A DNA stretch of 64,000 nt from the NCBI RefSeq assembly GCF_900095135.1, contig NZ_LT605205.1, positions 4,030,001 to 4,094,000 on the forward strand, read 5' to 3'. Numbering within the stretch: position 1 is the first letter of the stretch; every line of letters starts with the position of its first letter. Under the pieces are notes generated by a model. That model was given only the letters and a program-made list of their open reading frames with translations, ran no database searches and was not told the DNA's origin. The stretch comes from Proteiniphilum saccharofermentans. GTDB lineage: Bacteria > Bacteroidota > Bacteroidia > Bacteroidales > Dysgonomonadaceae. Positions 4,261-32,836 of the stretch are shown in pieces. A program made the translations under genes and the position numbers.

Positions 4261-6149
4261 TGAGTCCGCTCCGAAAAGTCGGAGTGATAATTTAGTTTAA
4301 AATTTTTTGTACAATAAATTTTATAAATCAGGTAAATTTCACCTGAAAAGTTCTTTGAAATATTTGTGTATATAGCTATTATTCACTACCTTAGTAGGGC
4401 TTAAAACTGTATAATATGTTCAAAAAATCGGACGAAAACCCTCAATTGGGCATTTTTTCATCACCGACGGAGTACTTCAGAGACTCTAAGAAGAAAGAAT
4501 ACCTAAAAAATGACTCCTGGCATAACCGGTTCCGAAACCATGTTGTAATGCGTGTGGATGAGTCTATTTTCAGACCACTTTATTCTAATGGAACGGGGGC
4601 TCCTAATGCCTCTATCCGTATTTTGGTCGGTATGATGATCCTCAAGGAAGGCCAGGGATGGAGCGACGCACAATTGTTTGAGAACTGCGCATACAATTTA
4701 CTTGTTCGCAGTGCTCTGGGTCTGATGTCGTTAGAGGACGCTGAGCCTGTTTCATCCACTTACTACCTTTTCCGTCGCCATCTGGTTGACTATGCAAGGG
4801 AACACGGCGAAGACCTGTTCAAAAAGTGCCAGGGGCAAATCACCCGTGACCAGCTATTGGAGTTTGAGGTGAGCGGCAAGCAGGTGCGCATGGACAGTAA
4901 ACTGGTCGGCAGCAATATCGCCTGGTACTCCCGTTACGAGTTGATTCATGAAACCCTGCGTCTGTTTATCAATGAAAGGGAGGAACATATCTTCAATAAG
5001 AGCCTGTCCAAAGAGATGTTTTCCCTTATCGAAAGCATACAGGGTGAAACGGGCAACAAGGTGGTGTACCGCAGTACAAAGGCCGAGGTTGATGCCAGGT
5101 TCGTTGAACTGGGCAAACTGATGTACCGTTTTATAGGGCTCTTCAAGAAGCATGACTATGGTCATTACCAGACCCTTAAAGCGGTTTTCGAACAACAATA
5201 CTCGGTTGGCAGGGACAAAACTGTCGTTCCTCTGGAAAAGGAGAAAGTCAGCGCCAAATCCATACAGTCACCCCATGACACCGACTGCCATTACCGTGAC
5301 AAAGACGGCAACAAGGTCAAAGGGTATTCGGTGAACGTCACCGAGACATGCGACCAACCGGGAGATGACAAAGATACGGCATTGAACCTGATAACCGATA
5401 CCGAGGTAACGGTGGCATCGGCTCCGGACAACGGCTTCCTTGAACAAGCCCTGGATCGGACACAGGAAATAATATCCGACAAAATAGAGAAAGTATATGC
5501 CGACGGGGCTTACCACAGTGCTGATAATCAGGAGTATTGCCAAAGCGATAAAAATGGCATCGAGCTGATACTCACAGGCATGCAAGGCCCCGCACCGAGA
5601 TATGACATCCGTTTGGACGAACAGAATGAAATCAATTTAATAGTAACCGACAACAAAACAGGAACAACAATACAGGCACAACGGGTAAAACTCCGCAAAG
5701 ACAAAACACAGAGGAAATGGAGGATCAAGACTGAAGAAGGAAAATACCGCTACTTCGATGAGGATAACCTCAGGGCTGCCGCTCTGAGGAAGAAATTGGA
5801 CGATATCCCGATAGATGAAAAAAATATCAGGAACAATGTCGAAGCAAGCATTTTCCAGTTAGGATACCATTACCCGAATGACAAGAGCCGTTACAGGTCA
5901 CTTGCCAAGCACAAACTATGGGCATACTCCCGCTCGTTGTGGATAAACTTCGTCAGGATAGTGAATTATATGACGCGAATAAGTCAAAGAGCGCTTTTTT
6001 GGCAAAAACTGCCACAATATATAATTAATTTATGTTTCAATATGTATATTATTGTAAGCATACTTTCAATTAATAAAAACAATCACATTTGTCCGGTTAA
6101 ACTTCATTTTTCAGCAATTTGAAAAAATGGGGTTTTCAGAGCAGACTCA
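4261..6149 (+). mobile_element. IS1182-family insertion sequence, copy 1, with intact TAGG duplication
   Basis: A 1,889-bp element bounded by imperfect terminal inverted repeats: TGAGTCCGCTCCGAAAAG at 4261-4278 and the inverse of TGAGTCTGCTCTGAAAAC at 6132-6149 (15 of 18 match). The left flank TAGG (4257-4260) is repeated immediately after the right end (6150-6153), so this copy has a perfect 4-bp target duplication and marks the original insertion event. It carries one transposase gene. The insertion lies inside the 5' end of fic. Confidence 0.9.
4416..6122 (+). CDS. IS1182-family DDE transposase, copy 1
   Basis: A 568-residue transposase. The N-terminal region (RNHVVMRVDESIFRPLYSNG, then GVGMMILKEGQGWSDAQLF-like text) is the conserved InsH/DUF772-type domain of this family. 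The catalytic domain shows acidic residues in RMDSKLVGSNIAW, in VYADGAYHSADNQEYC and in NNVEASIFQLGY, consistent with a DDE triad. The C-terminus contains the usual Y-R-x-L-x-K-H-K-L segment. The gene is intact and fills the element between its inverted repeats. It differs from copy 2 by Ser instead of Asn in the C-terminal IIVSILS segment. Confidence 0.92.
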   Translation: MFKKSDENPQLGIFSSPTEYFRDSKKKEYLKNDSWHNRFRNHVVMRVDESIFRPLYSNGTGAPNASIRILVGMMILKEGQGWSDAQLFENCAYNLLVRSALGLMSLEDAEPVSSTYYLFRRHLVDYAREHGEDLFKKCQGQITRDQLLEFEVSGKQVRMDSKLVGSNIAWYSRYELIHETLRLFINEREEHIFNKSLSKEMFSLIESIQGETGNKVVYRSTKAEVDARFVELGKLMYRFIGLFKKHDYGHYQTLKAVFEQQYSVGRDKTVVPLEKEKVSAKSIQSPHDTDCHYRDKDGNKVKGYSVNVTETCDQPGDDKDTALNLITDTEVTVASAPDNGFLEQALDRTQEIISDKIEKVYADGAYHSADNQEYCQSDKNGIELILTGMQGPAPRYDIRLDEQNEINLIVTDNKTGTTIQAQRVKLRKDKTQRKWRIKTEEGKYRYFDEDNLRAAALRKKLDDIPIDEKNIRNNVEASIFQLGYHYPNDKSRYRSLAKHKLWAYSRSLWINFVRIVNYMTRISQRALFWQKLPQYIINLCFNMYIIVSILSINKNNHICPVKLHFSAI

Positions 6150-6314
6150 TAGGTCATATTATTCATCATTTTTTGTTTATCTTATTCAAACTTTTTCCAA
6201 TTTCATTCCCAAATACTTAGAGAATATCACTCCTTCCATCATAAATTTCAGACTATAATATCATATTTCATACTCATTATCATCTATTTATCAGGAACAA
6301 ATATAAGGAAATAT
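6150..6314 (-). pseudogene. detached 5' end and leader of the fic gene
   Basis: Directly after the IS1182 right end, the minus strand reads ATG ATG AAT AAT ATG ACC TA from 6169 to 6150. If the IS and one TAGG are removed, this joins in frame to the fic remnant to give MMNNMTYKIPKLPLELD, a normal Fic N-terminus. The remaining bases up to 6314 are the old upstream region of fic, ending in AGGAAATAT (6306-6314), the target site of the neighbouring IS4 element. This fragment proves that the IS1182 insertion broke fic at this locus. Confidence 0.85.
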
Positions 6315-6425
6315 CACTATTAACCGACTAAATTCTAAATCCTTTAAATTCTATTTTTATTACGATGATACATAGTGTTTTGGAAAATGAAAATTCATTT
6401 TCCAAAAAGATACCCTCCCCATTCC

Positions 6426-6851
6426 TCAGAACAATGATAGCTGTGCGGCCGATGGGCTTTTGTTCCGACTCTTCATCCGTTTGGGATATGCACGCCTGCC
6501 TTCGGTCACAACCCAAGTCAAATCCAAATGGCTTATCAAATGCATTCGCAACAATGCGGCTATGGTTGAAAATGCCTTTTTGCTTTCAGATTTGGTTTGA
6601 ATCACCTGCAAAAGCAAAAAGGCGATCAATGTACACCAAACTTGTGTTTTTATACCGTTTTCCGTGTCGGAATAAAAATAGGTGAGTTGGAAGTTCTGTT
6701 TTAAACTTTTGAAGGTCGTCTCGATTAACCACCTGTTTTTATAAGCCAAGGCAACTTCCTCATCCGTTATTTCCCAATTATTGGTTATGAACTTGTATTT
6801 TCTGCCTTCCTCATCTTTATACCAGACTAAACGCAAGCATAAAGTTTTCAC
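6426..6851 (-). CDS. IS4-family transposase, C-terminal part (ORF B), copy 1
   Basis: A 141-codon frame carrying the third catalytic residue in YKNRWLIETTFKSLK, which fits the Y-(2)-R-(3)-E-(6)-K signature of IS4-family transposases. It opens at a GTG that overlaps the stop of ORF A (GTGA). Its coding frame extends further upstream and joins ORF A by a -1 shift at an A-run. Alone it lacks the two Asp residues and would not be catalytic. A fused ORF A-B product of about 436 residues is the expected transposase. Confidence 0.85.
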   Translation of the reverse strand: MKTLCLRLVWYKDEEGRKYKFITNNWEITDEEVALAYKNRWLIETTFKSLKQNFQLTYFYSDTENGIKTQVWCTLIAFLLLQVIQTKSESKKAFSTIAALLRMHLISHLDLTWVVTEGRRAYPKRMKSRNKSPSAAQLSLF

Positions 6852-7735
6852 CTGTTTGGATTTCTTCTTCTTTTTTTTCCCTCGACTTCGATTTCAACGG
6901 TTTCCTTATAGTTTATGTGGATATGCTCCGTTTTAAAAACGCCATATTCACCTTTCTCCAACTTCTTTTCAAACAGGACTTCCTGAACTTCATATTTTGC
7001 ATTGTCTTTTAGCCGGCAAACGTAATTTACACCCGTTTGGGTCCATTTGGCATATTGCAGGTAATAGTTGTACGCCTTGTCAAAGACTATCATGCTGCCC
7101 GGAGCCAAATTCAGATATTGCAAAAAGTTCTTGTCATGCATCTTTGCCTCGCTTATCTTCACAAATTGTGGCGTGTCGGCATGGATATCGGTCAGCATGT
7201 GGACTTTCAATCCGCCTTTCTTTTTCCCTTCGCCTTTAGGATTACGACCCACTCCTTTCATTATGTCCGAGAACAGGGTTATTGTACTTGAGTCAAATGC
7301 ATAAAATTCTTCAAAACTAATGCCTTCTTTGCGGCGTTTCCTTTTGCGGCTGACCGACAAAAATGGAGAAAAATGGGCTATCAATGCGAAATAGAACAGT
7401 CGGAACAATTCTTCGTCCCTATCACGTAACGCGTCTCCGGCCGTACTTTTGGCAGGTGAACTTTCCATCCCAAGATAATTCAGCTTACCCGCCAAAGCCC
7501 GCATTCCATCACAAACCTCCCCCATCGAGTCACAACGGGAAAATATGCCAAAGAGCATTACCATTAACTGCTCCCATGAAAAAAAGGTCTTATAATACCT
7601 GTCTGTTTTCATTCTTATCACCAACTCATCAAACTTCTCCTTGGGGATTATATTGATAATTTGTTTGAACACCGGCTGACCGACTAAATTCTTTTTGTTA
7701 ACTTTGTCCATGTCGATTTTATTTTTTTGCGACAA
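6848..7735 (-). CDS. IS4-family transposase, N-terminal part (ORF A), copy 1
   Basis: A 295-residue frame with the N-terminal DUF4372-like region (KKNLVGQPVFKQIINIIP, SWEQLMVMLFGIFSRC) and two catalytic-type Asp residues, in YAFDSSTITLFSD and SMIVFDKAYNYY. It ends shortly after a run of eight A residues with GKKRRRNPNR and a stop, while the -1 frame continues into the Glu-bearing domain of ORF B. The complete DDE triad needs a frameshift. It is identical to copy 2, so the shared frame interruption is not independent evidence of function. Confidence 0.85.
   Translation of the reverse strand: MSQKNKIDMDKVNKKNLVGQPVFKQIINIIPKEKFDELVIRMKTDRYYKTFFSWEQLMVMLFGIFSRCDSMGEVCDGMRALAGKLNYLGMESSPAKSTAGDALRDRDEELFRLFYFALIAHFSPFLSVSRKRKRRKEGISFEEFYAFDSSTITLFSDIMKGVGRNPKGEGKKKGGLKVHMLTDIHADTPQFVKISEAKMHDKNFLQYLNLAPGSMIVFDKAYNYYLQYAKWTQTGVNYVCRLKDNAKYEVQEVLFEKKLEKGEYGVFKTEHIHINYKETVEIEVEGKKRRRNPNR
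6871..6878 (-). promoter_or_regulatory. candidate -1 ribosomal frameshift site (A8 run) in IS4 transposase
   Basis: On the coding (minus) strand, GGG is followed by eight A and then G. In frame 0 the codons are GGA AAA AAA AGA. Two tRNAs on A-AAA-AAA can slip back one base and re-pair perfectly, giving KKKKSKQVKTLCLRL, which runs straight into the IS4 domain of ORF B. Slippery A-runs are a known frameshift device in several IS families. A plain indel mutation in the homopolymer is the alternative. Confidence 0.6.
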
Positions 7736-7898
7736 TAAAAATACGACATTCGGGTGAAACCGGAAAACGGGAGTAGCCCGATTCTTCTTTAATTATTTTA
7801 GTCGGTCAGTAGTGAAAAAATATCTAAACATTTGCCAGTAAAAAAAAAATGATGTTAATTTGTATTCTGCTGTTGGTTACGCCAAACATGGGAGATAA

Positions 7899-8492
7899 AT
7901 GGAATCAATTGATAATCAATGGAAGAAATTCCTGGAAGAGGGAGATAATCTCTCTTTCTCTCTTATCTATAAAAAACATATAGATGAGCTATTCTCTTAT
8001 GGAATCAGCTTGGGAATTCCGACTGAGATATGTAAAGATGCCCTGCAGGATACCTTTTACAAACTGTACATTACCAGAGAGAAGCTTCATCATGTAGAAA
8101 ATATCACCGCTTATATATTCAAGACTTTCAAAAATTGCCTCATAAATTTGAATAAAAAGGAGAGGCACAGGGAGAAAATTGTCTCTTTTCCAAACTCATT
8201 TTCCATTCAAGTCACAGTACTGGATGATATCATTAGCAATGAAAAAGCCGAATTGATTAAGAAAAAAGTGGAATCATTGTTAAGCAAGTTAACACCAAAT
8301 CAGCGTGAAGCTGTTTATCTGAAATATATGATCGGTTTGCAGCACAAGGAAATAGCAGAAGTTTTGAATATCAATGAGGAGTCTGCAAGAAAATTACTGT
8401 ACAGAGCCATGGAGAAACTACGCGAGTATGCTTCCCAAGATAATCACCCCGAGAGCTTATTCCTATTCACTCTACTCTATCTGATACGATAG
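7899..8492 (+). CDS. ECF-type RNA polymerase sigma-70 factor
   Basis: A 197-residue sigma factor with region 2 (ALQDTFYKLY, then HHVENITAYIFKTFKNCLIN) and region 4 (LTPNQREAVYLKYMIGLQHKEIAEVLNINEESARKLLYRAMEKLRE, a clear helix-turn-helix). It belongs to the Bacteroidota sigma-70 type paired with FecR anti-sigma factors that control SusCD loci. The next genes are exactly FecR, then an STN-domain SusC, then SusD. It probably directs transcription of the downstream island when a glycan signal is sensed. The IS4 right end lies 84 bp upstream, so its original promoter may be disrupted. Confidence 0.92.
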   Translation: MESIDNQWKKFLEEGDNLSFSLIYKKHIDELFSYGISLGIPTEICKDALQDTFYKLYITREKLHHVENITAYIFKTFKNCLINLNKKERHREKIVSFPNSFSIQVTVLDDIISNEKAELIKKKVESLLSKLTPNQREAVYLKYMIGLQHKEIAEVLNINEESARKLLYRAMEKLREYASQDNHPESLFLFTLLYLIR

Positions 8493-8531
8493 AAGCTTTT
8501 CAAATCTTCATTTTTGATACCTCTATATCTA

Positions 8532-8559
8532 TAATGTTAAAATTGCAATTTTAACATTA
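8532..8559. promoter_or_regulatory. 28-bp perfect palindrome between sigma and anti-sigma genes
   Basis: The 14-base half TAATGTTAAAATTG at 8532-8545 is followed directly by its exact reverse complement at 8546-8559, with no spacer. It sits 40 bp after the sigma stop and 53 bp before the fecR GTG. It could be a dimeric regulator's operator. As RNA it could form a hairpin that tunes how much anti-sigma factor is made relative to sigma factor. No U-run follows, so it is not a standard terminator. Confidence 0.6.
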
Positions 8560-8612
8560 AATTTTGTCCACGAATTTATTTTAATATTGTCAATATATAA
8601 AAAAGAATTGCT

Positions 8613-9812
8613 GTGAATAAAATAATTCATACATCTCAGCAGACTGATCACTTTCTTCAGAATGAAGATTTCATCAAGTGGAGGCTATTTCAAACGAAAG
8701 AATCAGAGGATTACTGGAAAGATTTCAAGTTAAAGAATCCACATTTGGAAGTTGCCCTACAGAATGCCATCAGCCAGTTTGATGCCATTGAAATCAACAA
8801 GTATCATCTGTCAGAACATGACAAAAAGGATATTTATGATATGGTCTTTCAAAAGATCAACCAATACAAGAGACGCAGACTGATAATATGGGTAAGTTCT
8901 GCTGCTGCCATTATGCTCCTGGGTGTTATGTCACTTTTATTTATGAATCAGATGAATAAAGAGAGTGGGTATATGTCAGAGCAGAAAAATGAAATAATTG
9001 TTGGGGAAACATTGCCAGAGGAAGAAATTTATCTTATTTCAGCTGGTAAAAAAATAAACCTGGCTCAGAATGTACAAATTGGTCTCACTGAGGATGGAAA
9101 TGCCTTGGTCACGGACAGTACATCATCAAAAAAAGTGCTGACGTTAGCCAAATCAGAATTAAACAGATTAGTTGTTCCTTACGGTAAAAGATCAAAACTG
9201 ATACTTTCTGACGGGACTGAAGTATGGCTTAATTCGGGGACACAACTTGATTTCCCTTCTGAATTTAATGGGAATACACGTGAGATTTTCATTGAAGGTG
9301 AGATTTTCATTGATGTTGCCCACAATGCGCAGGTACCTTTTATCGTGCATGCACAGGATATGGATATTCGAGTTCAAGGAACCTCATTTAACATCTCTGC
9401 TTATAGCGATGAAAGCAGTAAGACCGTTGTGTTGGTCGAAGGGAAAGTAAGAATAGGGAGAGGGTCGACACATATAGCCGAGCTATTACCAAACGAGAAA
9501 ATCGATATCACTGAAAACAACTTTCTGAAAGAGACTGTCGATGTATCAGAGTATATCAGCTGGAGAAAGGGTGTGCTGGAATTTAACAGTACACCCATGT
9601 CTGAAATTCTGAGGAAAATCGGACGCTACTACAATGTACAATTCGACGAAAACACGGATGTGAAACTAAATGAACTAACCTGTACTGGCAAGTTATTCCT
9701 TTCGAACAATCTGGACAGTGTAATGACTTCGGTTTCTATACTTTCCTCCACGCTATACAAAAGAGAAAATAATACAATACATATCATTAAAAAAGAGATG
9801 CCTATGAAATAA
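8613..9812 (+). CDS. FecR family anti-sigma factor
   Basis: A 399-residue inner-membrane anti-sigma factor. It has a cytoplasmic N-terminal part (about 1-90), one membrane segment (LIIWVSSAAAIMLLGVMSLLFM, about 92-113), the periplasmic FecR domain (LVVPYGKRSKLILSDGTEVWLNSGT, VQGTSFNISAY) and the C-terminal DUF4974 domain (YISWRKGVLEFNSTPMSEIL). It is expected to hold the adjacent sigma factor until the STN domain of SusC signals. The start is a GTG at 8613. No nearer ATG keeps the N-terminal sigma-binding region. Confidence 0.92.
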   Translation: MNKIIHTSQQTDHFLQNEDFIKWRLFQTKESEDYWKDFKLKNPHLEVALQNAISQFDAIEINKYHLSEHDKKDIYDMVFQKINQYKRRRLIIWVSSAAAIMLLGVMSLLFMNQMNKESGYMSEQKNEIIVGETLPEEEIYLISAGKKINLAQNVQIGLTEDGNALVTDSTSSKKVLTLAKSELNRLVVPYGKRSKLILSDGTEVWLNSGTQLDFPSEFNGNTREIFIEGEIFIDVAHNAQVPFIVHAQDMDIRVQGTSFNISAYSDESSKTVVLVEGKVRIGRGSTHIAELLPNEKIDITENNFLKETVDVSEYISWRKGVLEFNSTPMSEILRKIGRYYNVQFDENTDVKLNELTCTGKLFLSNNLDSVMTSVSILSSTLYKRENNTIHIIKKEMPMK

Positions 9813-9839
9813 ATCCCTTAATAAGATATCAGAAAAAAT

Positions 9840-9863
9840 CGGACAATGCTGTCACATTGCCCG
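9840..9863. other. stem-loop between fecR and susC
   Basis: CGGACAATG (9840-9848) and CATTGCCCG (9855-9863) can pair with one A-C mismatch around the loop CTGTCA. It lies 28 bp after fecR and 60 bp before susC. No T-tract follows, so a role in termination is unclear. It could be a regulatory or processing hairpin ahead of susC. Confidence 0.4.
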
Positions 9864-9923
9864 ATCATAAAAAACTTAATTTACAAATAAACCTAATCAG
9901 TAAACTAAATTCATTACAAATGT

Positions 9924-12900
9924 ATGGAAGAATTTATTAAATCTAAACAAATTGCATATAAAAAATGCAACCGATGCTTAAAGATCATGAAGTTGTCGAC
10001 TTTCTTTTTATTTGTCTGCTTATTTAGCACAATGGCAGAGAATTTACTTCCTCAGCAAAAGGAGCTTACTCTTGAGCTGAGAAATGTGACTATTTCAAAA
10101 GCGATCTCCGAGATTGAAAGAACAAGTGATTACCTCTTTTTAATTACAGATGAGGCAAAAACGGAGCTTAATAAAAGAACCTCTATCCATGTAGACAAAG
10201 AGAGTATCAGTAATATACTGAATATTATCCTGGACGAAACTGCTCTGGACTATAGCCTGGTAGAAAGACAAGTTTCACTTTATAAAAGTACAAAACTTAT
10301 ATCCCGGGATAAATCCGAGTTGGTTACAGACGAGGTTGCACAACAGAAAAAAGCAATCACTGGAAAAATCACTGATAAAAACGGTGAAACCGTGATCGGG
10401 GCCAACATCATTGAAATAGGCACTACCAACGGGACAGTGACAGACGTAGATGGACATTTTTCACTCAGTGTGGAAGAGAACGCAAATATTCGTGTATCAT
10501 ATATCGGATATTTAAGCCAGACAATCAACACATCCGGTAAAACAAGCTTTGATATTATTTTACAGGAAGATACCAAAACATTGGAAGAAATTGTTGCAGT
10601 CGGTTATGGCACTATGAGAAAATCAGATCTGACTGGCTCAGTAGCTAGTGTCAAATCACAAGATTTAACCGCCTTCCCAACAATTCAGGCAATGCAGGCT
10701 TTACAGGGAAGGGCATCAGGTGTACATGTCCAAGCCACTAACGGCGAACCTGGAGCCGACTTTAAAGTGCGTATCCGGGGTGCAAAATCCATTAGTTCGT
10801 CAAGCGACCCATTAATCGTTGTCGATGGTTTCCCTGGCGTTACGATGCCGGTGAGTGAAGATATTCAGTCTGTCGAAGTATTAAAAGATGCCTCTGCTAC
10901 TGCTATTTACGGCTCACGCGGAGCAAACGGTGTTATTTTGGTAACAACCAAAAGTGGTAGAGTGGGAAAAGCCAAAATCGAATTTAACTCCTCCTATTCT
11001 GTACAGAACGTGCTTAATAAACTGGATTTACTTAAAACGGCTGATTATATCGATTATGTAAATGAAATTGAGCCTGGGAAACTGACAGGTACAGACTATG
11101 AAGATACCGACTGGCAGGACGAAGTATTCCGGCAGGGAGGTATACAAAATTATCAACTTTCTATCTCGGGAGGTAACGACGATAGTCACTATTATGTTTC
11201 AGGCGTTATTTACGATCAGAAAGGGATTGTGATTGATTCCAAATTCAAACGTTATTCGATCACCAGTAACCTTGATTTACAAGCGCTTAAGAACCTCAAG
11301 GTAGGCGTTAAACTTTTTGCATTAAGAGAGCAAAGAAATGGGACAGTGAACATGGAAGGGAGCGGTGGCGCCGGGCAGACCGGTGTCCTGTCGGCAACAG
11401 TTTTGACCGAACCTACCATTCCTGTTTATAATTCAGACGGGTCATACCACAGCTCTTTCATGACTGGTCTTGAAAGAGACAACCCCGTTGCCATTGCGAG
11501 GGAAATGGCTATTGAAAGCGAAGGCGACAACCTGCAGGCCAACTTCTTTGGAGAGTATCAAATAACAAAGAATTTAAAATTCCGGTCAACTTTTGGAGCG
11601 CAGACCTGGTCTAACCGCTACGGAAACTACTTACCCACAACCATGTATGGCGGCAGAAGTATCAATGGTCGTGGTACCATTGACGGGAACAGGGTTACAA
11701 ACTTATCCAATGAAAACTATTTCACCTTCAGTGAAAAGTTCAGCGAAATTCATGATATATCTTTAATGGCCGGTTATACTTACGAGTCATCTAAATCTGA
11801 ATTTTGGCGCGCCCAGAGCGAAAATTTTCTTTCAGACGCTTTTGATTTTTGGAACTTATCTGCAGGATCCAACTACAGAGCTCCTGTTTCCTCTTTAACA
11901 GAATCAGAGTTATCGTCTTTCTACGGAAGGCTTCATTATAAATTATTTGACCGTTACCTGCTTACTTTCACAGGCCGCTATGACGGATCATCAAAATTTG
12001 CTAAAAACAATAAATGGGGCTTTTTTCCATCAGGCGCTATTGCGTGGAATATTGCAGAAGAAAGTTTTATGGATGAGATACCTCAGATCAGCCAGCTAAA
12101 GTTGCGCGGCAGCTATGGTATAACAGGAAACCAATCGATTGCTGCCTACGGATCTTTGGCACTGATGAGAACAATACCCAGTGTTACAATTGGTAACGAA
12201 GTTGTAAATGCCGTCACGCCCAATACAGTAGCTAATAATAATCTTACCTGGGAAAAAACAGCTCAGCAGGATATCGGTATTGATTTGGGGTTATTTAATC
12301 AACGTATTTCAATTGTTGCTGACTATTATTATATGAAAACCACCGATCAACTGTTCCAGGTTCCCCTGGTTTCATACTCCGGTTACGATAATATGTGGAA
12401 AAACTTTGGTGCGGTCGAAAATAAAGGATTTGAATTTACCCTGTCGACCGTAAACTTTAACGGAGACTTTAAGTGGAATACCGATTTTAATTTCTCTAGA
12501 AACCGGAATAAAGTACTGGAATTACCTAATGGCGCCGACGTCTTAAGAAGCGTATTTCCAGGGCACATGGTTGGAATCGGTACTACCAATGTGTTGAGAG
12601 AAGGTTATCCCATGGGGTCGTTCTTTGGGTATATTTATGATGGGGTTTACCAGGAGGGTGATACTTTTCTTCCCGGCGGTGGCTTTGAACAGGTTGCAGG
12701 CGGTGAAAAATTCCGAGACATAAACGGAAAGCAGGATGGTGTACTTACAGGTCAGCCTGACGGTCAGTTGAACAGCGATGACAGGACGATTATCGGTGAC
12801 CCCAATCCTGATTTCATTTGGGGTTTAAATAATACCTTTGAATATAAAGGATTTGATTTGAATGTTTTTGTTCAGGCATCCCAAGGAAATGATATTTATA

Positions 12901-13316: not shown

Positions 13317-13350
13317 TGTAGTCTGATTAATTCAATTTAAAACAATAAAA

Positions 13351-14850: not shown

Positions 14851-15007
14851 AGTCATTGTGAACATATGGTTTCAACCAATGATGTTTTGAAGACGATAAA
14901 ACAAATTTGTCCGGTCTAGGTTGATTCATTTCTGTTATATCTGTTTTACAGATGGAGAAATAGATCATCAGTATCTCAGACAGCGTTTTCAAATCGCCCA
15001 TTGTACA

Positions 15008-15057
15008 TTTTCATTGAGGAAAGAGTTGTATTTATCAACTCTTTCCCATAATGAAAA
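15008..15057. other. long imperfect hairpin downstream of susD
   Basis: GGAAAGAGTTG (15018-15028) pairs perfectly with CAACTCTTTCC (15036-15046) around the loop TATTTAT. Outside a small internal loop, TTTTCATT (15008-15015) pairs with AATGAAAA (15050-15057), giving 19 base pairs in all. It lies in the 318-bp gap between susD and the GH26 gene, which otherwise shows no gene. It may end or stabilise the susCD message, so that susCD and the downstream genes are expressed at different levels. Confidence 0.6.
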
Positions 15058-15089
15058 TTTAATCACCGTAATTTTTCTCACCACATTAT

Positions 15090-15109
15090 CCGATTATGAA
15101 TATAATCGG
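15090..15109. other. second hairpin upstream of the GH26 gene
   Basis: CCGATTAT (15090-15097) and ATAATCGG (15102-15109) form a perfect 8-bp stem with the loop GAAT. It sits 59 bp before the GH26 ATG, in the same gap as the larger hairpin. It could be an operator or a leader structure. No T-tract follows. Confidence 0.45.
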
Positions 15110-15168
15110 GTGAATCGGCCTAATCACTGATTAACAAAACAGTCATATAATATTCATAAACATTCAAT

Positions 15169-19682: not shown

Positions 19683-19705
19683 CAGGTGATAACAACGAAA
19701 CGTCT

Positions 19706-20890: not shown

Positions 20891-20900
20891 TATTGTCCAA

Positions 20901-24381: not shown

Positions 24382-26736
24382 ATGATTAATCAGGTAAATC
24401 AAATATTTCTATGTAGTTTCCTGTTTTTATCCTTATTCCCGGTGAGTTTCGCTCAACCAGCGTCGCATTGGGTATCCTACCCTTCTGCCAATCAAACAGC
24501 ATACGGAGTATACCATTTCCGAAAAAGCTTTGAACTGGATAAAGTCCCCGACAAAATGGTTATCCACGTTTCAGCCGATAACAGGTATAATCTTTTTGTG
24601 AATGGCAAACGGGTTTGTTACGGACCGGCAAAAGGTGATCTTAAGACTTATAAGTACGATATAATTGATATCGCTCCATTCCTACATATCGGCGAAAACC
24701 TTCTGGCAGCACTTGTTTTTAATGGAGGCGATGATAAACCTATGGCATTTATTTCGGTACAAACGGCTTTTATGTTGCGTGTGGAAAACAGCAATTTTAG
24801 TGAATTGAATACTAACAGTAACTGGAAAGTCTATAAAAATCCTGCGTATCGGGTGATTTCCTATCATGAGATGTTATTTAAAGAACGGTGGTTTTATGGG
24901 TTTTATGCCTGTGGCGGCGGTGACGAGATCTTTGCCGAAAAATATCCATGGGGTTGGGAAACAACAGGATTTGACGACAGCGGTTGGATTGCTGCTGAAC
25001 CATTGCTGTTTGACAAGCAACCGCCCTGGAACCTTGTTCCAAGAAACATCGCATTTATGGATGACCATTTGGCCTATCCCGCCAAAATCCGAAAGGTGAA
25101 CAACGTCAATATCCCTGTTGGTAAATGGGACGGAACATCAAGTTTAACCATTCCTGCCAATACCAGTGCCAACATTTTAATCGATTTTGAGGTGCTGACT
25201 ATGGGATATCCCGAACTGACTGTACATGGTGGTGCGGGTAGCCGCATTCAGGTAAAATATGCAGAGGCGCTATATGAAGCGGTTCACCTGAAGGCCCATC
25301 GTGACTCGGTGAATAATCTGAATATGTTTGGCGTATGGGATATTTTTCATGCAGATGGAGGAGAATGTATGTTCCGGCCGTTGTGGAAGCGATGCTTTCG
25401 CTACGTCCAGTTCAATGTGGAAACCAAAAACGAACCGTTAGAAATCGGTTCATATATTCTTGAATATTCAGGGTATCCCTATCCAGAAATGGCAACCTTT
25501 GAAAGTGACAATGAAAAGCTGAACGAAATTTTTGAGATGAGCCAACGTACGTTGCGTATGTGTTCGGGAGAAACTTATTACGATACACCGTTTTACGAAC
25601 AGTTGAGTTATGGAGGGGACAACCGGCCTATTGCAGCCATTTCAACCTACAATTCTACCGATGACCGGCTTCTACGTGAAGTTTTAAGGCTTTACCCTCA
25701 GTCGGAAAACAAAGAAACTGGTTTGTTCAAGTCGGCTTATCCTTCCCGCTTCGATTTTGATATGGGAACATGGTCTATGGGATGGGTGCAAACACTGCTT
25801 GATTATTACCTGATGCGGGGTGATTCTGCTTTTGTCCTGCAGTTTACCGATAACATAGAAGGGGTATTGCGGTTTTATGAACGTCACCTCGACGAACGTA
25901 CCGGATTGATCGGCGTAGTAAAAAATCAAAACTTCGTCGACTGGAGTATTACAAAAGGGAGTTTAGTACGCCGTAATGAAAATGGTGAAGCAAGACAGTC
26001 TGGTTTGCTCACCCTTTATTATGCCCATACGCTCGACTGTGTCTCCAGACTTTATCAGGAAACAGGATTGACAAGCCGTTCGGCGCATTGGAAAGAGCTT
26101 TCCGGAAAAATAAAGGCAGCAGTGTACACCAATTGCTGGGATGAACAGAAGCAACTCTTCCGCGATTATGCTGATAAGGAGATTTTCTCGCAACATACCA
26201 ACATTATGGCTATTTTATGCGATTTAGTACCGCCATCAGCGCAAACTGAGTTGCTACACCGTATTTTACAGTTTGAAAGTTTCGAAGAGATGGCCAGTTC
26301 CTATTTCTCCTTTTTCCTGTTTAAAGCCATGGAAAAAACCGGGAACGAACATCTTTATCTCGATAACCTGGATTTCTGGTATAATTTTATCGATCGGGGT
26401 CATACAACCTGTGGCGAAACCGGGTTTGCTTCACACGACCGCTCCGATTGCCATGCCTGGAGCGCCCATCCGGCCTACTTCCTACTGAGTTCAGTGTGCG
26501 GGATAAAACCGGCCGATATTGGTTTTAAAACAGTAAAAATCGAACCACATCTGGGGGAACTCAAAAGTTTAAAAGCCGATATGCCTCATCCAACCGGTCG
26601 TATCAAAGTGGAGTATCAACTCACAAAAAAAGGATTGCAGACCCTTATTGTTTTGCCTCAGGGTATGTCGGGCTCATTCAGATTTAAAGGAGCAGAAAGA
26701 ATATTGACTGAAGGCGAGAATAGGTTTATTTTGTGA
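24382..26736 (+). CDS. alpha-L-rhamnosidase-like glycoside hydrolase (GH78 type)
   Basis: A 784-residue protein with a signal peptide (FLCSFLFLSLFPVSFAQ). An N-terminal beta-sandwich (about 40-120, ADNRYNLFVNGKRVCYGPAKGD) is the ligand/N-domain usual in bacterial rhamnosidases. The (alpha/alpha)6 barrel follows, with TYYDTPFYEQLSYGGDNRP near 395 and DFDMGTWSMGWVQTLLDYY near 455; acidic residues in these segments fit the inverting GH78 mechanism. A C-terminal beta-domain ends the protein. It probably releases terminal alpha-L-rhamnose in the periplasm. Specificity is inferred from family only. Confidence 0.82.
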   Translation: MINQVNQIFLCSFLFLSLFPVSFAQPASHWVSYPSANQTAYGVYHFRKSFELDKVPDKMVIHVSADNRYNLFVNGKRVCYGPAKGDLKTYKYDIIDIAPFLHIGENLLAALVFNGGDDKPMAFISVQTAFMLRVENSNFSELNTNSNWKVYKNPAYRVISYHEMLFKERWFYGFYACGGGDEIFAEKYPWGWETTGFDDSGWIAAEPLLFDKQPPWNLVPRNIAFMDDHLAYPAKIRKVNNVNIPVGKWDGTSSLTIPANTSANILIDFEVLTMGYPELTVHGGAGSRIQVKYAEALYEAVHLKAHRDSVNNLNMFGVWDIFHADGGECMFRPLWKRCFRYVQFNVETKNEPLEIGSYILEYSGYPYPEMATFESDNEKLNEIFEMSQRTLRMCSGETYYDTPFYEQLSYGGDNRPIAAISTYNSTDDRLLREVLRLYPQSENKETGLFKSAYPSRFDFDMGTWSMGWVQTLLDYYLMRGDSAFVLQFTDNIEGVLRFYERHLDERTGLIGVVKNQNFVDWSITKGSLVRRNENGEARQSGLLTLYYAHTLDCVSRLYQETGLTSRSAHWKELSGKIKAAVYTNCWDEQKQLFRDYADKEIFSQHTNIMAILCDLVPPSAQTELLHRILQFESFEEMASSYFSFFLFKAMEKTGNEHLYLDNLDFWYNFIDRGHTTCGETGFASHDRSDCHAWSAHPAYFLLSSVCGIKPADIGFKTVKIEPHLGELKSLKADMPHPTGRIKVEYQLTKKGLQTLIVLPQGMSGSFRFKGAERILTEGENRFIL

Positions 26737-26767
26737 CAAGAAATTTTTAAAATTATTATCTTTGTTT

Positions 26768-28603
26768 ATGAAAAGTATTATAAAGATTACACCGCTTATC
26801 TTCCTTACACCCTTGTCCTGCCAGCAAAAACAACCGCAGGAACAGGAACTACCGAATATCCTCTGGTTAACCTCGGAAGACAACAGCCCATTCCTGGGTT
26901 GTTACGGCGACACCCTTGCCACAACACCCCACCTCGACAAACTGGCCTCGCAAGGCTTCCTCTATACCCATGCCTATGCAAACGCGCCGGTCAGCGCACC
27001 TTCAAGGAATACGATCATCACAGGGGTATATGCCAACTCGGCCGGGAATGAGAATATGCGCAGTACCTACGCAAAAAGCGATGAGGTAAGGTTTTATCCC
27101 CAATTCTTAAGGGAACTGGGGTATTATTGTACCAACAATAAAAAGGAAGATTACAATATCCTCGGGAAACAGCTCTCCGGTATATGGGATGAGTCGTCCG
27201 ACCAGGCCCATTACAAGAACCGGAAACCGGGGCAACCCTTCTTTGCCATATTCAACACCACCCTCTCCCACGAACATGTGATACACGAGTCAATACCTGA
27301 CAGTGAACTAAGGCATGATCCAAGGAAGATGTCCCTGCCTCCCTACCACCCCCGTACTCCCGAAATGGAACATGACTGGGCACAATATTATGATTATATT
27401 GAGAGGATGGATGCCTGGATAGGTGAGCAACTCAAGGAACTGGAAGATAATGGACTGCTGGAAAATACAATCGTATTCTATTATGCAGACCACGGCGGTA
27501 TCCTGGGCAGGAGCAAGCGCTACATTTATGAGTCGGGGACACGGGTCCCACTTATCGTCCGCATTCCCGATAAATACAAGCATCTGTTTCCCAATAGTGA
27601 AAAGGGGACAAAAGTCGACAGGTTAATCAGCCTTGTAGACCTGGCTCCGACCCTGTTAAGCATTACAGGTATACCCAAACCGGCATATATGCAGGGGAAT
27701 GCTTTTCTTGGACCCGACACGACAGAAGACCCGGAGTACGTGTATATGTTCAGGGGCAGGATGGATGAAAGATACGACCTCTCCAGGGCTGTGCGCGACA
27801 GGAAATACAGGTACATTAGAAACTATATGCCCCACAGGATCTACGGCCAACATATAGACTATCTTTGGAAGGCACCTTCCCTTGCATCGTGGGAACAGGC
27901 GTACCTGAACGGGGAATGCAATGAGGTGCAAGGCAGGTTCTGGCAATATAAACCGGCGGAAGAGTTATACGACACAGAAAATGACCCCTGGGAAGTGGTA
28001 AACCTTGCGGGTAAGCCGGAATACGGGGAAGTCCTCGAACGTATGCGCAGGGCAAACAGGGAGTGGCTACTGGAAATCAGGGATGCAGGGTTTATCCCTG
28101 AAGCAGACCGGTCGACAAGGACAAAGAACCGCGCTATATATGACTATATGAGGGAAGAAAATATTCCTCTTGAAGAGATAGTCAATGCTGCGGAAATAGC
28201 AAGTGAGGGCAACCCGGAAAATCTGCCGCTGCTGGTCAAATTCCTGGAGAGTGACGACAGCGCTATTCGTTACTGGGGAGCCATGGGACTCCTGATCCTG
28301 GGTGAAAAGGCACGGCCGGCCGTTCCGGCTTTGGAAAAGGCATCCGCAGATGATTTCCCGAATGTGGCAACCGTCGCAGCGGAAGCCTTGTATTCCCTGG
28401 GGAGAAAGGAGTTGGCTGAACAGATACTCCTGGACAAACTGAAAAATGACGATCATACCTGTACATTTGCCTTGAACTCAGTTGATGTATTGGGTATTGA
28501 CAGCAAGGCTGTAAAGGACAAAGTCTCCGAGATCGCTGAAAAGTATAAACTACAGTACAACCTGAGCGCAGCCAAATGGTTACTGGAAAAGTGGGGAATA
28601 TAG
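26768..28603 (+). CDS. Ser-type sulfatase lipoprotein with HEAT-like C-terminus
   Basis: About 611 residues from the ATG at 26768; an in-frame TTG at 26762 precedes it. The signal peptide ends in a lipobox (FLTPLSC, Cys18). The sulfatase signature S-A-P-S-R (residues 76-80) has Ser rather than Cys as formylglycine precursor, so it needs an anaerobic radical-SAM maturase, none of which lies in the window. Metal-binding residues occur in LWLTSEDNSPF and YYADHGGILGRSKRYIYE. The C-terminal 130 residues form HEAT-like helices (SAIRYWGAMGLLILG). Next to the rhamnosidase gene, it points to a sulfated, rhamnose-containing glycan. Substrate position is unknown. Confidence 0.9.
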   Translation: MKSIIKITPLIFLTPLSCQQKQPQEQELPNILWLTSEDNSPFLGCYGDTLATTPHLDKLASQGFLYTHAYANAPVSAPSRNTIITGVYANSAGNENMRSTYAKSDEVRFYPQFLRELGYYCTNNKKEDYNILGKQLSGIWDESSDQAHYKNRKPGQPFFAIFNTTLSHEHVIHESIPDSELRHDPRKMSLPPYHPRTPEMEHDWAQYYDYIERMDAWIGEQLKELEDNGLLENTIVFYYADHGGILGRSKRYIYESGTRVPLIVRIPDKYKHLFPNSEKGTKVDRLISLVDLAPTLLSITGIPKPAYMQGNAFLGPDTTEDPEYVYMFRGRMDERYDLSRAVRDRKYRYIRNYMPHRIYGQHIDYLWKAPSLASWEQAYLNGECNEVQGRFWQYKPAEELYDTENDPWEVVNLAGKPEYGEVLERMRRANREWLLEIRDAGFIPEADRSTRTKNRAIYDYMREENIPLEEIVNAAEIASEGNPENLPLLVKFLESDDSAIRYWGAMGLLILGEKARPAVPALEKASADDFPNVATVAAEALYSLGRKELAEQILLDKLKNDDHTCTFALNSVDVLGIDSKAVKDKVSEIAEKYKLQYNLSAAKWLLEKWGI

Positions 28604-28644: not shown

Positions 28645-29125
28645 ATGAATAAGCTTTTATTAAAAATCTCAATTGTAATCTGCTTGTTGGGAGTATTCCC
28701 TTTTTTTGCATGGAGCCAGCAATCGGTCTCAGTTACGAATTTCAAAAACAACCCTCTACCAAAAAATCCCACTTCGTTAAAAATACTGGGTATTGGTAAT
28801 AGTTTTACGGATGACGGAATGCAATACCTGCCCGATCTGTTGAAACACGCAGGCATAGATAATGTTATGCTGGGGAGATTGGTGCGTGGGGGGTGCTCCC
28901 TTGAACAACACCATAAGATTTATACATCCGGAGAAGCCGGTTATCCACGCTATGAGAAGTCATACCCCGGAAAGAATGCCTGGGAAAAGGTAAAGGAGCC
29001 ATGCGGATTTGTAGAAGCTGTTGCTGATAAAGCCTGGGATATTATCGTGATTCAACAGGTATCAGAGCTTGCAGGAGTGTACGAATCTTTCCAGCCCTAT
29101 CTGAATGAGTTGATAGATGCAATAA
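28645..29125 (+). pseudogene. SGNH/DUF4886-type protein truncated by IS1182
   Basis: The N-terminal 160 residues show a signal peptide (LLKISIVICLLGVFPFFAWSQ) and the start of an SGNH hydrolase-like fold (LKILGIGNSFTDDGMQYLPDLL), with the Ser in the GNSFT block. The IIVIQQVSELAG segment near 133 is the next strand. The native frame ends at 29125, where IS1182 begins, and the reading frame then picks up about 11 codons of IS sequence. The Asp/His end of the catalytic domain is missing. The lost 3' part would have lain at the island's original location. Confidence 0.85.
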
Positions 29126-31014
29126 TGAGTCCGCTCCGAAAAGTCGGAGTGATAATTTAGTTTAAAATTTTTTGTACAATAAATTTTATAAATCAGGTAA
29201 ATTTCACCTGAAAAGTTCTTTGAAATATTTGCGTATATAGCTATTATTCACTACCTTAGTAGGGCTTAAAACTGTATAATATGTTCAAAAAATCGGACGA
29301 AAACCCTCAATTGGGCATTTTTTCATCACCGACGGAGTACTTCAGAGACTCTAAGAAGAAAGAATACCTAAAAAATGACTCCTGGCATAACCGGTTCCGA
29401 AACCATGTTGTAATGCGTGTGGATGAGTCTATTTTCAGACCACTTTATTCTAATGGAACGGGGGCTCCTAATGCCTCTATCCGTATTTTGGTCGGTATGA
29501 TGATCCTCAAGGAAGGCCAGGGATGGAGCGACGCACAATTGTTTGAGAACTGCGCATACAATTTACTTGTTCGCAGTGCTCTGGGTCTGATGTCGTTAGA
29601 GGACGCTGAGCCTGTTTCATCCACTTACTACCTTTTCCGTCGCCATCTGGTTGACTATGCAAGGGAACACGGCGAAGACCTGTTCAAAAAGTGCCAGGGG
29701 CAAATCACCCGTGACCAGCTATTGGAGTTTGAGGTGAGCGGCAAGCAGGTGCGCATGGACAGTAAACTGGTCGGCAGCAATATCGCCTGGTACTCCCGTT
29801 ACGAGTTGATTCATGAAACCCTGCGTCTGTTTATCAATGAAAGGGAGGAACATATCTTCAATAAGAGCCTGTCCAAAGAGATGTTTTCCCTTATCGAAAG
29901 CATACAGGGTGAAACGGGCAACAAGGTGGTGTACCGCAGTACAAAGGCCGAGGTTGATGCCAGGTTCGTTGAACTGGGCAAACTGATGTACCGTTTTATA
30001 GGGCTCTTCAAGAAGCATGACTATGGTCATTACCAGACCCTTAAAGCGGTTTTCGAACAACAATACTCGGTTGGCAGGGACAAAACTGTCGTTCCTCTGG
30101 AAAAGGAGAAAGTCAGCGCCAAATCCATACAGTCACCCCATGACACCGACTGCCATTACCGTGACAAAGACGGCAACAAGGTCAAAGGGTATTCGGTGAA
30201 CGTCACCGAGACATGCGACCAACCGGGAGATGACAAAGATACGGCATTGAACCTGATAACCGATACCGAGGTAACGGTGGCATCGGCTCCGGACAACGGC
30301 TTCCTTGAACAAGCCCTGGATCGGACACAGGAAATAATATCCGACAAAATAGAGAAAGTATATGCCGACGGGGCTTACCACAGTGCTGATAATCAGGAGT
30401 ATTGCCAAAGCGATAAAAATGGCATCGAGCTGATACTCACAGGCATGCAAGGCCCCGCACCGAGATATGACATCCGTTTGGACGAACAGAATGAAATCAA
30501 TTTAATAGTAACCGACAACAAAACAGGAACAACAATACAGGCACAACGGGTAAAACTCCGCAAAGACAAAACACAGAGGAAATGGAGGATCAAGACTGAA
30601 GAAGGAAAATACCGCTACTTCGATGAGGATAACCTCAGGGCTGCCGCTCTGAGGAAGAAATTGGACGATATCCCGATAGATGAAAAAAATATCAGGAACA
30701 ATGTCGAAGCAAGCATTTTCCAGTTAGGATACCATTACCCGAATGACAAGAGCCGTTACAGGTCACTTGCCAAGCACAAACTATGGGCATACTCCCGCTC
30801 GTTGTGGATAAACTTCGTCAGGATAGTGAATTATATGACGCGAATAAGTCAAAGAGCGCTTTTTTGGCAAAAACTGCCACAATATATAATTAATTTATGT
30901 TTCAATATGTATATTATTGTAAACATACTTTCAATTAATAAAAACAATCACATTTGTCCGGTTAAACTTCATTTTTCAGCAATTTGAAAAAATGGGGTTT
31001 TCAGAGCAGACTCA
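29126..31014 (+). mobile_element. IS1182-family insertion sequence, copy 2, without target duplication
   Basis: The same 1,889-bp element as copy 1. The left flank is AATAA from the SGNH gene and the right flank is TAGG from the old fic leader, so the 4-bp duplication is absent. Its left junction is therefore the result of recombination or an independent insertion, not of the event that created the TAGG pair. Confidence 0.9.
29281..30987 (+). CDS. IS1182-family DDE transposase, copy 2
   Basis: A 568-residue intact transposase identical to copy 1 apart from Asn in place of Ser in the C-terminal IIVNILS segment. It shows the same acidic catalytic blocks (RMDSKLVGSN, VYADGAYHSA, NNVEASIF). Both copies can in principle produce active transposase. 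Confidence 0.92.
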   Translation: MFKKSDENPQLGIFSSPTEYFRDSKKKEYLKNDSWHNRFRNHVVMRVDESIFRPLYSNGTGAPNASIRILVGMMILKEGQGWSDAQLFENCAYNLLVRSALGLMSLEDAEPVSSTYYLFRRHLVDYAREHGEDLFKKCQGQITRDQLLEFEVSGKQVRMDSKLVGSNIAWYSRYELIHETLRLFINEREEHIFNKSLSKEMFSLIESIQGETGNKVVYRSTKAEVDARFVELGKLMYRFIGLFKKHDYGHYQTLKAVFEQQYSVGRDKTVVPLEKEKVSAKSIQSPHDTDCHYRDKDGNKVKGYSVNVTETCDQPGDDKDTALNLITDTEVTVASAPDNGFLEQALDRTQEIISDKIEKVYADGAYHSADNQEYCQSDKNGIELILTGMQGPAPRYDIRLDEQNEINLIVTDNKTGTTIQAQRVKLRKDKTQRKWRIKTEEGKYRYFDEDNLRAAALRKKLDDIPIDEKNIRNNVEASIFQLGYHYPNDKSRYRSLAKHKLWAYSRSLWINFVRIVNYMTRISQRALFWQKLPQYIINLCFNMYIIVNILSINKNNHICPVKLHFSAI

Positions 31015-31179
31015 TAGGTCATATTATTCATCATTTTTTGTTTATCTTATTCAAACTTTTTCCAATTTCATTCCCAAATACTTAGAGAATATCACTCCTT
31101 CCATCATAAATTTCAGACTATAATATCATATTTCATACTCATTATCATCTATTTATCAGGAACAAATATAAGGAAATAT
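31015..31179 (-). pseudogene. second copy of detached fic 5' end and leader
   Basis: The 165 bp between IS1182 and IS4 is repeated from 6150-6314, including the fic ATG codons and ending in AGGAAATAT (31171-31179). A host-gene fragment duplicated together with the two IS elements shows that the whole block was copied as one unit by recombination. Confidence 0.85.
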
Positions 31180-31290
31180 CACTATTAACCGACTAAATTC
31201 TAAATCCTTTAAATTCTATTTTTATTACGATGATACATAGTGTTTTGGAAAATGAAAATTCATTTTCCAAAAAGATACCCTCCCCATTCC

Positions 31291-31716
31291 TCAGAACAAT
31301 GATAGCTGTGCGGCCGATGGGCTTTTGTTCCGACTCTTCATCCGTTTGGGATATGCACGCCTGCCTTCGGTCACAACCCAAGTCAAATCCAAATGGCTTA
31401 TCAAATGCATTCGCAACAATGCGGCTATGGTTGAAAATGCCTTTTTGCTTTCAGATTTGGTTTGAATCACCTGCAAAAGCAAAAAGGCGATCAATGTACA
31501 CCAAACTTGTGTTTTTATACCGTTTTCCGTGTCGGAATAAAAATAGGTGAGTTGGAAGTTCTGTTTTAAACTTTTGAAGGTCGTCTCGATTAACCACCTG
31601 TTTTTATAAGCCAAGGCAACTTCCTCATCCGTTATTTCCCAATTATTGGTTATGAACTTGTATTTTCTGCCTTCCTCATCTTTATACCAGACTAAACGCA
31701 AGCATAAAGTTTTCAC
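31291..31716 (-). CDS. IS4-family transposase, C-terminal part (ORF B), copy 2
   Basis: Identical to 6426-6851. It carries the Glu of the YREK motif (YKNRWLIETTFKSLK) and needs a -1 frameshift from ORF A to make a full transposase. The GTG start overlaps the ORF A stop by four bases. Confidence 0.85.
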   Translation of the reverse strand: MKTLCLRLVWYKDEEGRKYKFITNNWEITDEEVALAYKNRWLIETTFKSLKQNFQLTYFYSDTENGIKTQVWCTLIAFLLLQVIQTKSESKKAFSTIAALLRMHLISHLDLTWVVTEGRRAYPKRMKSRNKSPSAAQLSLF

Positions 31717-32600
31717 CTGTTTGGATTTCTTCTTCTTTTTTTTCCCTCGACTTCGATTTCAACGGTTTCCTTATAGTTTATGTGGATATGCTCCGTTTTA
31801 AAAACGCCATATTCACCTTTCTCCAACTTCTTTTCAAACAGGACTTCCTGAACTTCATATTTTGCATTGTCTTTTAGCCGGCAAACGTAATTTACACCCG
31901 TTTGGGTCCATTTGGCATATTGCAGGTAATAGTTGTACGCCTTGTCAAAGACTATCATGCTGCCCGGAGCCAAATTCAGATATTGCAAAAAGTTCTTGTC
32001 ATGCATCTTTGCCTCGCTTATCTTCACAAATTGTGGCGTGTCGGCATGGATATCGGTCAGCATGTGGACTTTCAATCCGCCTTTCTTTTTCCCTTCGCCT
32101 TTAGGATTACGACCCACTCCTTTCATTATGTCCGAGAACAGGGTTATTGTACTTGAGTCAAATGCATAAAATTCTTCAAAACTAATGCCTTCTTTGCGGC
32201 GTTTCCTTTTGCGGCTGACCGACAAAAATGGAGAAAAATGGGCTATCAATGCGAAATAGAACAGTCGGAACAATTCTTCGTCCCTATCACGTAACGCGTC
32301 TCCGGCCGTACTTTTGGCAGGTGAACTTTCCATCCCAAGATAATTCAGCTTACCCGCCAAAGCCCGCATTCCATCACAAACCTCCCCCATCGAGTCACAA
32401 CGGGAAAATATGCCAAAGAGCATTACCATTAACTGCTCCCATGAAAAAAAGGTCTTATAATACCTGTCTGTTTTCATTCTTATCACCAACTCATCAAACT
32501 TCTCCTTGGGGATTATATTGATAATTTGTTTGAACACCGGCTGACCGACTAAATTCTTTTTGTTAACTTTGTCCATGTCGATTTTATTTTTTTGCGACAA
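31713..32600 (-). CDS. IS4-family transposase, N-terminal part (ORF A), copy 2
   Basis: Identical to 6848-7735. It holds the two Asp blocks (YAFDSSTITLFSD, SMIVFDKAYNYY) and ends just after the same eight-A run. The start at 32600 lies 80 bp inside the right inverted repeat. Confidence 0.85.
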   Translation of the reverse strand: MSQKNKIDMDKVNKKNLVGQPVFKQIINIIPKEKFDELVIRMKTDRYYKTFFSWEQLMVMLFGIFSRCDSMGEVCDGMRALAGKLNYLGMESSPAKSTAGDALRDRDEELFRLFYFALIAHFSPFLSVSRKRKRRKEGISFEEFYAFDSSTITLFSDIMKGVGRNPKGEGKKKGGLKVHMLTDIHADTPQFVKISEAKMHDKNFLQYLNLAPGSMIVFDKAYNYYLQYAKWTQTGVNYVCRLKDNAKYEVQEVLFEKKLEKGEYGVFKTEHIHINYKETVEIEVEGKKRRRNPNR

Positions 32601-32836
32601 TAAAAATACGACATTCGGGTGAAACCGGAAAACGGGAGTAGCCCGATTCTTCTTTAATTATTTTAGTCGGTCAGTAGTGAGGAAATATATTGAATAAAAA
32701 GATTCCTCTCTTCCAAAAATCAGAACTTATCGCACGCTGAATTCAGGGAAGCAACTCTTTCATTGAAAAGCAAACATACTATTTATTCTTCGATTTCAGT
32801 CGATAACGTTGTTTTTCTTGGTGTATGTTTGTTATA

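Follow-up and report, generated by a model that had tools for sequence, protein, structure and literature searches.

How does a gene set for glycan use come to lie between two copies of one and the same pair of insertion sequences (IS)? The question is raised by a 64,000-nucleotide stretch of the Proteiniphilum saccharofermentans chromosome (the window; G000:C1:4030001-4094000, within the single 4,414,963-base contig of this genome), in which a 21.3-kb island of glycan-use genes is enclosed by two copies of a compound block, each composed of an IS1182 element, a piece of the fic gene and an IS4 element. Probably, a block already resident in the chromosome recombined with incoming DNA of the order IS4-island-IS1182, through homologous recombination at both ISs. 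Throughout, G-numbers denote genomes and L-numbers loci of the comparison set, in which each species is represented by one genome; G000 is the genome of the window itself.

The doubled block and its target duplications

Self-BLAST of the window returned one long direct repeat, in which 4261-7823 corresponds to 29126-32688 with 4 mismatches in 3563 positions, located at block positions 107, 1798, 3556 and 3557. The last two belong to the 9 bp past IS4, and the shared block proper is therefore 3554 bp long with 2 mismatches, extending over window 4261-7814 (copy 1) and 29126-32679 (copy 2) in direct orientation. Each copy is built in the order IS1182 (1889 bp), fic 5' piece (165 bp) and IS4 (1500 bp), with copy 2 displaced from copy 1 by 24,865 bp, such that both island borders carry direct, near-identical repeats of IS plus resident flank. 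Between the two blocks, neither the fic piece nor IS4 differs at any base, and the event that doubled the block would be either recent or followed by homogenisation of the copies. In both copies the IS4 transposase (window 6426-7735 and 31291-32600) is divided at a run of eight A, giving two frames, and it is a single frame in a 69% relative in G013; the split may represent either a broken gene or a slippage site.

The flanks of the ISs are distributed unevenly over the two blocks. IS1182 copy 1 has TAGG at both flanks; in copy 2, TAGG is confined to the right, and the left flank reads ...GCAATAA (ATAA). AGGAAATAT is found to the left of IS4 in both copies and to the right of it in copy 2 only, the right flank of copy 1 being AAAAAATAT. 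When 24,865 bp are deleted, a single block remains in which both duplications are restored, and the duplications fit one ancestral insertion per IS, distributed across two block copies. The original prediction, made from the letters of the window, had proposed an island between two copies of a 3.55-kb compound block, an IS1182 duplication at copy 1 only, an IS4 duplication at copy 2 only and the recovery of both upon collapse of the repeat; each of these points holds on self-BLAST and on reading of the flanks.

Other copies of the two elements indicate what their target duplications look like. The same IS1182 is present in four copies in G013, with duplications AGAA, TTGT, GTAT and the 5-bp TACAT. 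A 6-bp duplication, ATAGGT, was considered for IS1182 and dropped in favour of TAGG, since the G013 copies give 4 bp three times and 5 bp once. Among the other full copies in the own genome, L005 has ATTA, and L003 and L004 have no duplication; over nine full near-identical copies the duplication is thus of 4 bp in five, of 5 bp in one and absent in three (copy 2 among these). For IS4, the 69% relative in G013 has the 9-bp duplication ATTTATTTT, and in G025, where a single side is visible, ATTTAAATT follows an IS4-group end. AAAAAATAT matches the A...T, A/T-rich type of ATTTATTTT and appears to fit the target type of this IS4 group, which would explain its likeness to AGGAAATAT (7/9 identical; among the 63,991 9-mers of the window 192 attain this score, as do 42 of the 7,006 that lie in A/T-rich context).

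Matching outer duplications are also what composite transposition would leave, with the unit IS4-island-IS1182-fic piece-IS4 (or an IS1182-ended unit) jumping as one transposon: AGGAAATAT lies on both sides of the stretch from IS4 copy 1 to IS4 copy 2, and TAGG likewise borders the stretch from IS1182 copy 1 to IS1182 copy 2. Yet part of the cargo is flank of the target itself, ending at the very same base. A unit that already contains a fic piece ending in the same AGGAAATAT (or starting with the same TAGG) would have had to strike the same base of the same locus twice, and with an IS4 transposase that is split in both copies, which makes this explanation very unlikely.

The empty site and the severed cargo edge

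The gene interrupted on the left, fic, encodes a SoFic-like protein adenylyltransferase. When it was queried against 101 family genomes (own included), 17 matched, and only G468, a member of another genus of the same family, did so over the whole query (98%). The site in G468 (L130) is without IS and without island. Identity to the window there is 97% for fic, 91% for the fic 5' piece and 86% for the right flank, and the three follow one another without interruption, L130 4198-5437 corresponding to window 4261-3022, 4038-4203 to 6314-6149 and 3781-4046 to 32932-32680; the 3' end of tRNA-Gly directly continues from the right flank. Adjoining matches have 9 bp in common at the IS4 target and 6 bp at the IS1182 target, as an unoccupied site predicts, and L130 aligns to the site predicted from the window with zero gaps at both targets. 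The 9-bp IS4 target in L130 differs from AGGAAATAT at one base.

As fic in G468 is a 376-aa frame, IS1182 copy 1 can be placed within the coding frame of fic, only a few codons in. In G020 (L054) the TAGG site is likewise uninterrupted, but agreement with the window continues for only 12 bp past TAGG. The G020 fic gene (L054 7517-8534) is itself short of about 270 bp inside the gene, and its upstream sequence turns unrelated at that same point, near the contig end. Searches of viral contigs for the IS4-island junction and for the empty fic start gave 0 and 0 matches. Taken together, the comparisons support an ancestral site free of the island. The earlier proposal of one ancestral block without the island agrees with the island-free site in G468 and with target duplications that fit a single resident block, while its description of the 165 bp as fic leader stands in part: the piece is fic 5' sequence, but it includes the candidate fic start codons, with IS1182 consequently inside the frame.

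At the opposite edge of the island, the cargo is severed at an IS within an SGNH gene that is intact in G032 (L057). There, a rhamnosidase gene (87%) is followed by the SGNH gene (85.5%), the match to which stops at window 29126 and the gene continues to 319 aa; the rhamnosidase and SGNH matches are 7 bp apart, with the sulfatase gene of the window absent between them. Because the G032 homologue runs past the break, its match ending at window 29126, the island SGNH gene was most likely cut by IS1182, on the far side of which fic sequence now adjoins. L057 is letter for letter the same contig as L078 (labelled as a Proteiniphilum sp. metagenome-assembled genome), and an SGNH scan of genome contigs gave 11 loci, of which L078 is close (89%) and the other 10 are at 34-74% identity.

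The two IS1182 copies also differ in ancestry markers. At base 107, copy 1 shares a T with L003, and C is found in copy 2, L004, L005, all four G013 copies and all four more distant loci; base 1798 is G in copy 1 alone among nine full copies. Given C107 in all comparison loci save L003, T107 is probably derived and the left end of copy 2 was probably not copied from copy 1, which suggests two separate IS1182 insertions. Two separate IS4 insertions are what we infer alongside. Incoming DNA with IS4 on its left and IS1182 on its right is supported, less directly than the empty site, by the SGNH gene that is cut here and intact in G032, by the IS1182 alleles and by the fit of AAAAAATAT to IS4 targets.

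Elsewhere in the chromosome a lone 97-bp IS1182 right end is present at G000:C1:2457174-2457270 (L006), as is a short element with IS1182-like ends at G000:C1:1348500-1348559 (L007). A 1.7-Mb inversion between L003 and L004 had been considered, both being without duplications, with an apparent swap of flanks and AGAT on one side of each. It was rejected after a search of 7 relatives: G021, the sole genome informative for both loci, shows no sign of it, the two flanks of L004 adjoining each other there and those of L003 being collinear with 3.4 kb between them.

Repeats wrongly joined during assembly could in principle produce the second block or its junctions, the block being a 3.55-kb repeat and IS1182 having additional copies. 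Such an artefact is highly improbable, considering that the genome is one 4.41 Mb contig, that the block copies differ at two inner bases, that the SGNH break coincides with the point where an independent genome has the gene intact and that G468 supports the outer junctions.

Proposed route of the island into the fic site

The order of events, the involvement of RecA and the form of the donor are reconstructed as follows. The original site would have consisted of fic, the fic upstream region and tRNA-Gly. IS1182 would have entered the fic start at TAGG, and IS4 the upstream region at AGGAAATAT, giving the resident block, while elsewhere the island would have gained IS4 at its left edge (AAAAAATAT) and IS1182 within its SGNH gene. 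Homologous recombination, presumably of the RecA type, with one exchange in IS4 and one in IS1182, would then have left a block at both sides of the island, with the SGNH 3' half lost. The doubling would arise because the incoming order (IS4-island-IS1182) reverses the resident order (IS1182-IS4). The donor may have been a linear fragment bridging sister chromosomes, as in the pneumococcal merodiploid model (PMC3784515), or a circle, such as a plasmid, that entered at one IS and shed its backbone by a second exchange; the two would not be distinguishable from sequence, as the product is the same. The ends-in entry originally proposed retains its donor flanks, IS4 and IS1182, on the evidence of SGNH, the alleles and AAAAAATAT. 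Its linear form is one of several, since a circle, or an intrachromosomal duplication with deletion, gives the same product.

In that intrachromosomal course of events, the island would have stood elsewhere as IS4-island-IS1182, unequal sister exchange at IS1182 would have produced a tandem duplication, IS4 recombination would have deleted the intervening DNA and the original island would later have been lost. Nearly the same IS1182 does occur at three other chromosomal places of the own genome, and a RecA-made, IS-bounded tandem duplication is documented (PMC9946442). An extra loss is required, however, as no second near-identical island, further near-identical IS4 or SGNH remainder was found in the own genome. 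Furthermore, the IS701-like element inside the island is matched in the rest of the own genome only by two short, diverged stretches (79% over 149 bp and 84% over 64 bp) and is present at 96% in relatives, G023 and G010 among them; this suggests that the island came from outside. On the strength of the missing SGNH remainder, the lack of a further near-identical IS4 and this element, diverged at home but at 96% in relatives, an outside donor is preferred and an intrachromosomal source is considered unlikely.

Several observations weigh against recombination of a resident block with incoming DNA. No donor was found: the block plus island had no megablast match in the plasmid collection, and no near-identical island was seen among the matches listed, with few candidates scored per genome, for 60 other relatives or for 392 other genomes of the order (window 16304-29125 only). 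The SGNH 3' side, taken from L057, was unmatched in the own genome, in a search without positive control that shows little. As to the intermediate state, relatives, to which the original prediction had turned for the empty site, yielded the G468 site free of IS and island, but among the matches listed for the genomes searched, one per species, no site with fic, one block and tRNA-Gly was found. A missing target duplication is by itself suggestive but non-diagnostic, because L003 and L004, two of the seven other full near-identical IS1182 copies read, also have none. The 7/9 likeness of AAAAAATAT to AGGAAATAT could instead reflect a mutated duplication, and the IS1182 allele argument concerns a single base that gene conversion could have altered. 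Lastly, the two block IS4 copies are identical and are the sole near-identical IS4 in the own genome, with a split transposase.

If the island did enter by recombination between a resident block and incoming DNA, its release as a 24.9-kb circle by recombination between the blocks would be possible, as a parallel to the duplication and resolution that RecA brings about between copies of an IS (PMC9946442). A broader idea, which is speculative and rather unlikely, is that two unlike ISs, with 165 bp between them, serve as a landing pad for repeated use, at which IS4/IS1182-flanked DNA docks between doubled blocks and leaves as a one-block circle, making the island a two-IS shuttle that cycles in the population.

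Island contents, the ptb-tRNA-Gly hotspot and known systems

The 21.3 kb between the blocks constitute a glycan-use gene set with the make-up of a polysaccharide utilisation locus, comprising a SusC/SusD pair, a regulator (ECF sigma, FecR), GH26, rhamnosidase and sulfatase, all by Pfam. Two regions of the own genome (G000:C1:433565-438020 and 3870776-3875101; L059) are 68% identical to window ~16346-20871 and show a recurring Nramp, DHDPS-like and M20 set.

Table 1. Coordinates of the island, its bordering blocks and the neighbouring genes in the window
Feature	Position	Strand	Basis
buk and ptb (acetate/butyrate kinase, phosphate acetyl/butyryl transferase), conserved genes bordering the hotspot on the left	751..2754	-	Pfam PF00871, PF01515; same order beside tRNA-Gly in relatives measured
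fic (SoFic-like protein adenylyltransferase), severed from start codon and upstream region by IS1182 copy 1	3143..4260	-	Pfam Fic_N, Fic, SoFic-like_C; NF046030 below cut-off; intact 376-aa homologue in L130
TAGG, target duplication on the left of IS1182 copy 1 (its right counterpart at 6150-6153)	4257..4260	.	flank reading; single TAGG in L054 and L130
IS1182, block copy 1 (T107, G1798)	4261..6149	+	568-aa transposase: PF05598; NF033551 below cut-off; inverted ends
fic 5' piece of copy 1, with candidate start codons and upstream region; its end is AGGAAATAT	6150..6314	-	91% to L130
IS4, block copy 1, transposase in two frames split at A8 run	6315..7814	-	NF033592 on both frames: first above, second below cut-off
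AAAAAATAT, flank of IS4 copy 1 on the side of the island; probably one half of an IS4 target duplication belonging to the island	7815..7823	.
Island first part: ECF sigma, FecR, SusC-type TonB-dependent receptor, SusD, GH26, Nramp, unknown (337 aa), DHDPS-like, M20 peptidase, DoxX, GFO/IDH	7899..22960	+	Pfam
IS701-like transposase inside the island	23030..24241	-	NF049999 below cut-off
alpha-L-rhamnosidase and sulfatase genes	24382..28603	+	Pfam PF17389, PF00884
SGNH (DUF4886) gene, most likely cut by IS1182 copy 2	28645..29125	+	PF16227 positions 1-115 of 242; 85.5% to intact L057 gene
IS1182, block copy 2 (C107, A1798)	29126..31014	+	self-BLAST repeat, flank reading
fic 5' piece, copy 2	31015..31179	-	self-BLAST repeat, match to L130
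IS4, block copy 2	31180..32679	-	self-BLAST repeat
AGGAAATAT, right target duplication of IS4 copy 2	32680..32688	.	single copy, one mismatch, in L130
tRNA-Gly(ccc), 3' end toward the island, right border of the hotspot	32885..32958	-

The interval from ptb to tRNA-Gly(ccc) is an insertion hotspot in the genus. It measures about 0.15 kb in both G034 and G029, 2.0 kb in G002, 2.6 kb in G015, 6.6 kb in G016, 9.5 kb in G024, 16.1 kb in G026, 17.9 kb in G010, 23.6 kb in G030 and 28.0 kb in G013, and reaches 30.1 kb in the window (2754-32885). These ten relatives (10 of the 38 other genus genomes) were picked by eye as having buk/ptb and tRNA genes on one contig, with tblastn rows of less than 25% query coverage excluded. 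The sample omits G023 (fetched stretch without tRNA-Gly), G003, G035, G027 and G019 (tRNA side only fetched), as well as G009 and G017, which have buk/ptb and a partial tRNA-region match on one contig.

Gene content of the interval (window and L107-L119) varies among most genomes, with G013 and G026 sharing an integrase element. Both carry nearly the same tyrosine integrase (PF13102 above and PF00589 just below cut-off) beside a repeat of the tRNA-Gly 3' end, which is 45 bp exact in G026 (L115 1071-1115 and 16879-16923) and 29 bp exact in G013 (L113 868 and 14757). In G468 (L130 3784), the fic region abuts the same tRNA-Gly end together with an integrase that is 55% identical. Integration of the island at the tRNA, by an integrase or an integrative and conjugative element, was rejected: no integrase is present among the 15 island open reading frames scanned, no exact repeat of the tRNA-Gly region longer than 11 bp lies between window 2600 and 32840, and the best ungapped window match to the 45-bp tRNA end is 25/45. 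It may be that fic once arrived with an integrase element at tRNA-Gly and the island later via the IS route.

The last step in the arrival of a glycan-use locus can thus be read almost base by base, from target duplications, an empty site in another genus and an IS-cut gene, in an arrival for which no integrase was found among the scanned island frames; it also draws attention to a hotspot with lengths between about 150 bp and about 30 kb among the genomes measured. The case is a clear one, its mechanism familiar and unusually legible, and the exact route may have taken one of several forms. With the tyrosine-integrase elements of G013, G026 and partly G468, the island shares a border at the tRNA-Gly(ccc) 3' end, but those elements have an integrase and a tRNA 3' end repeat, and the window island is without such a repeat.

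Further parallels are found in systems described elsewhere. In Burkholderia thailandensis, RecA-dependent tandem duplication takes place between IS copies (PMC9946442), and in both cases direct IS copies supply the homology for gain or loss of the intervening region; there a resident region is amplified, whereas here a new single-copy island lies between compound blocks of unlike ISs. Streptococcus pneumoniae forms merodiploids upon transformation with repeat-bearing fragments, a fragment pairing alternatively with repeats on sister chromosomes to yield a duplication bordered by IS-derived repeats (PMC3784515). That process duplicates a resident segment, while in the window only the 3.55-kb block is doubled around new DNA. 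The outcome, IS-cargo-IS next to a resident copy, also resembles incorporation of an IS26 translocatable unit, in which an IS-bearing unit joins beside a resident IS26 copy (PMC4894685). Unlike that reaction, which relies on the IS26 transposase and one kind of IS, the present arrangement has two unrelated ISs and the stretch between them doubled, and this points to homologous recombination.

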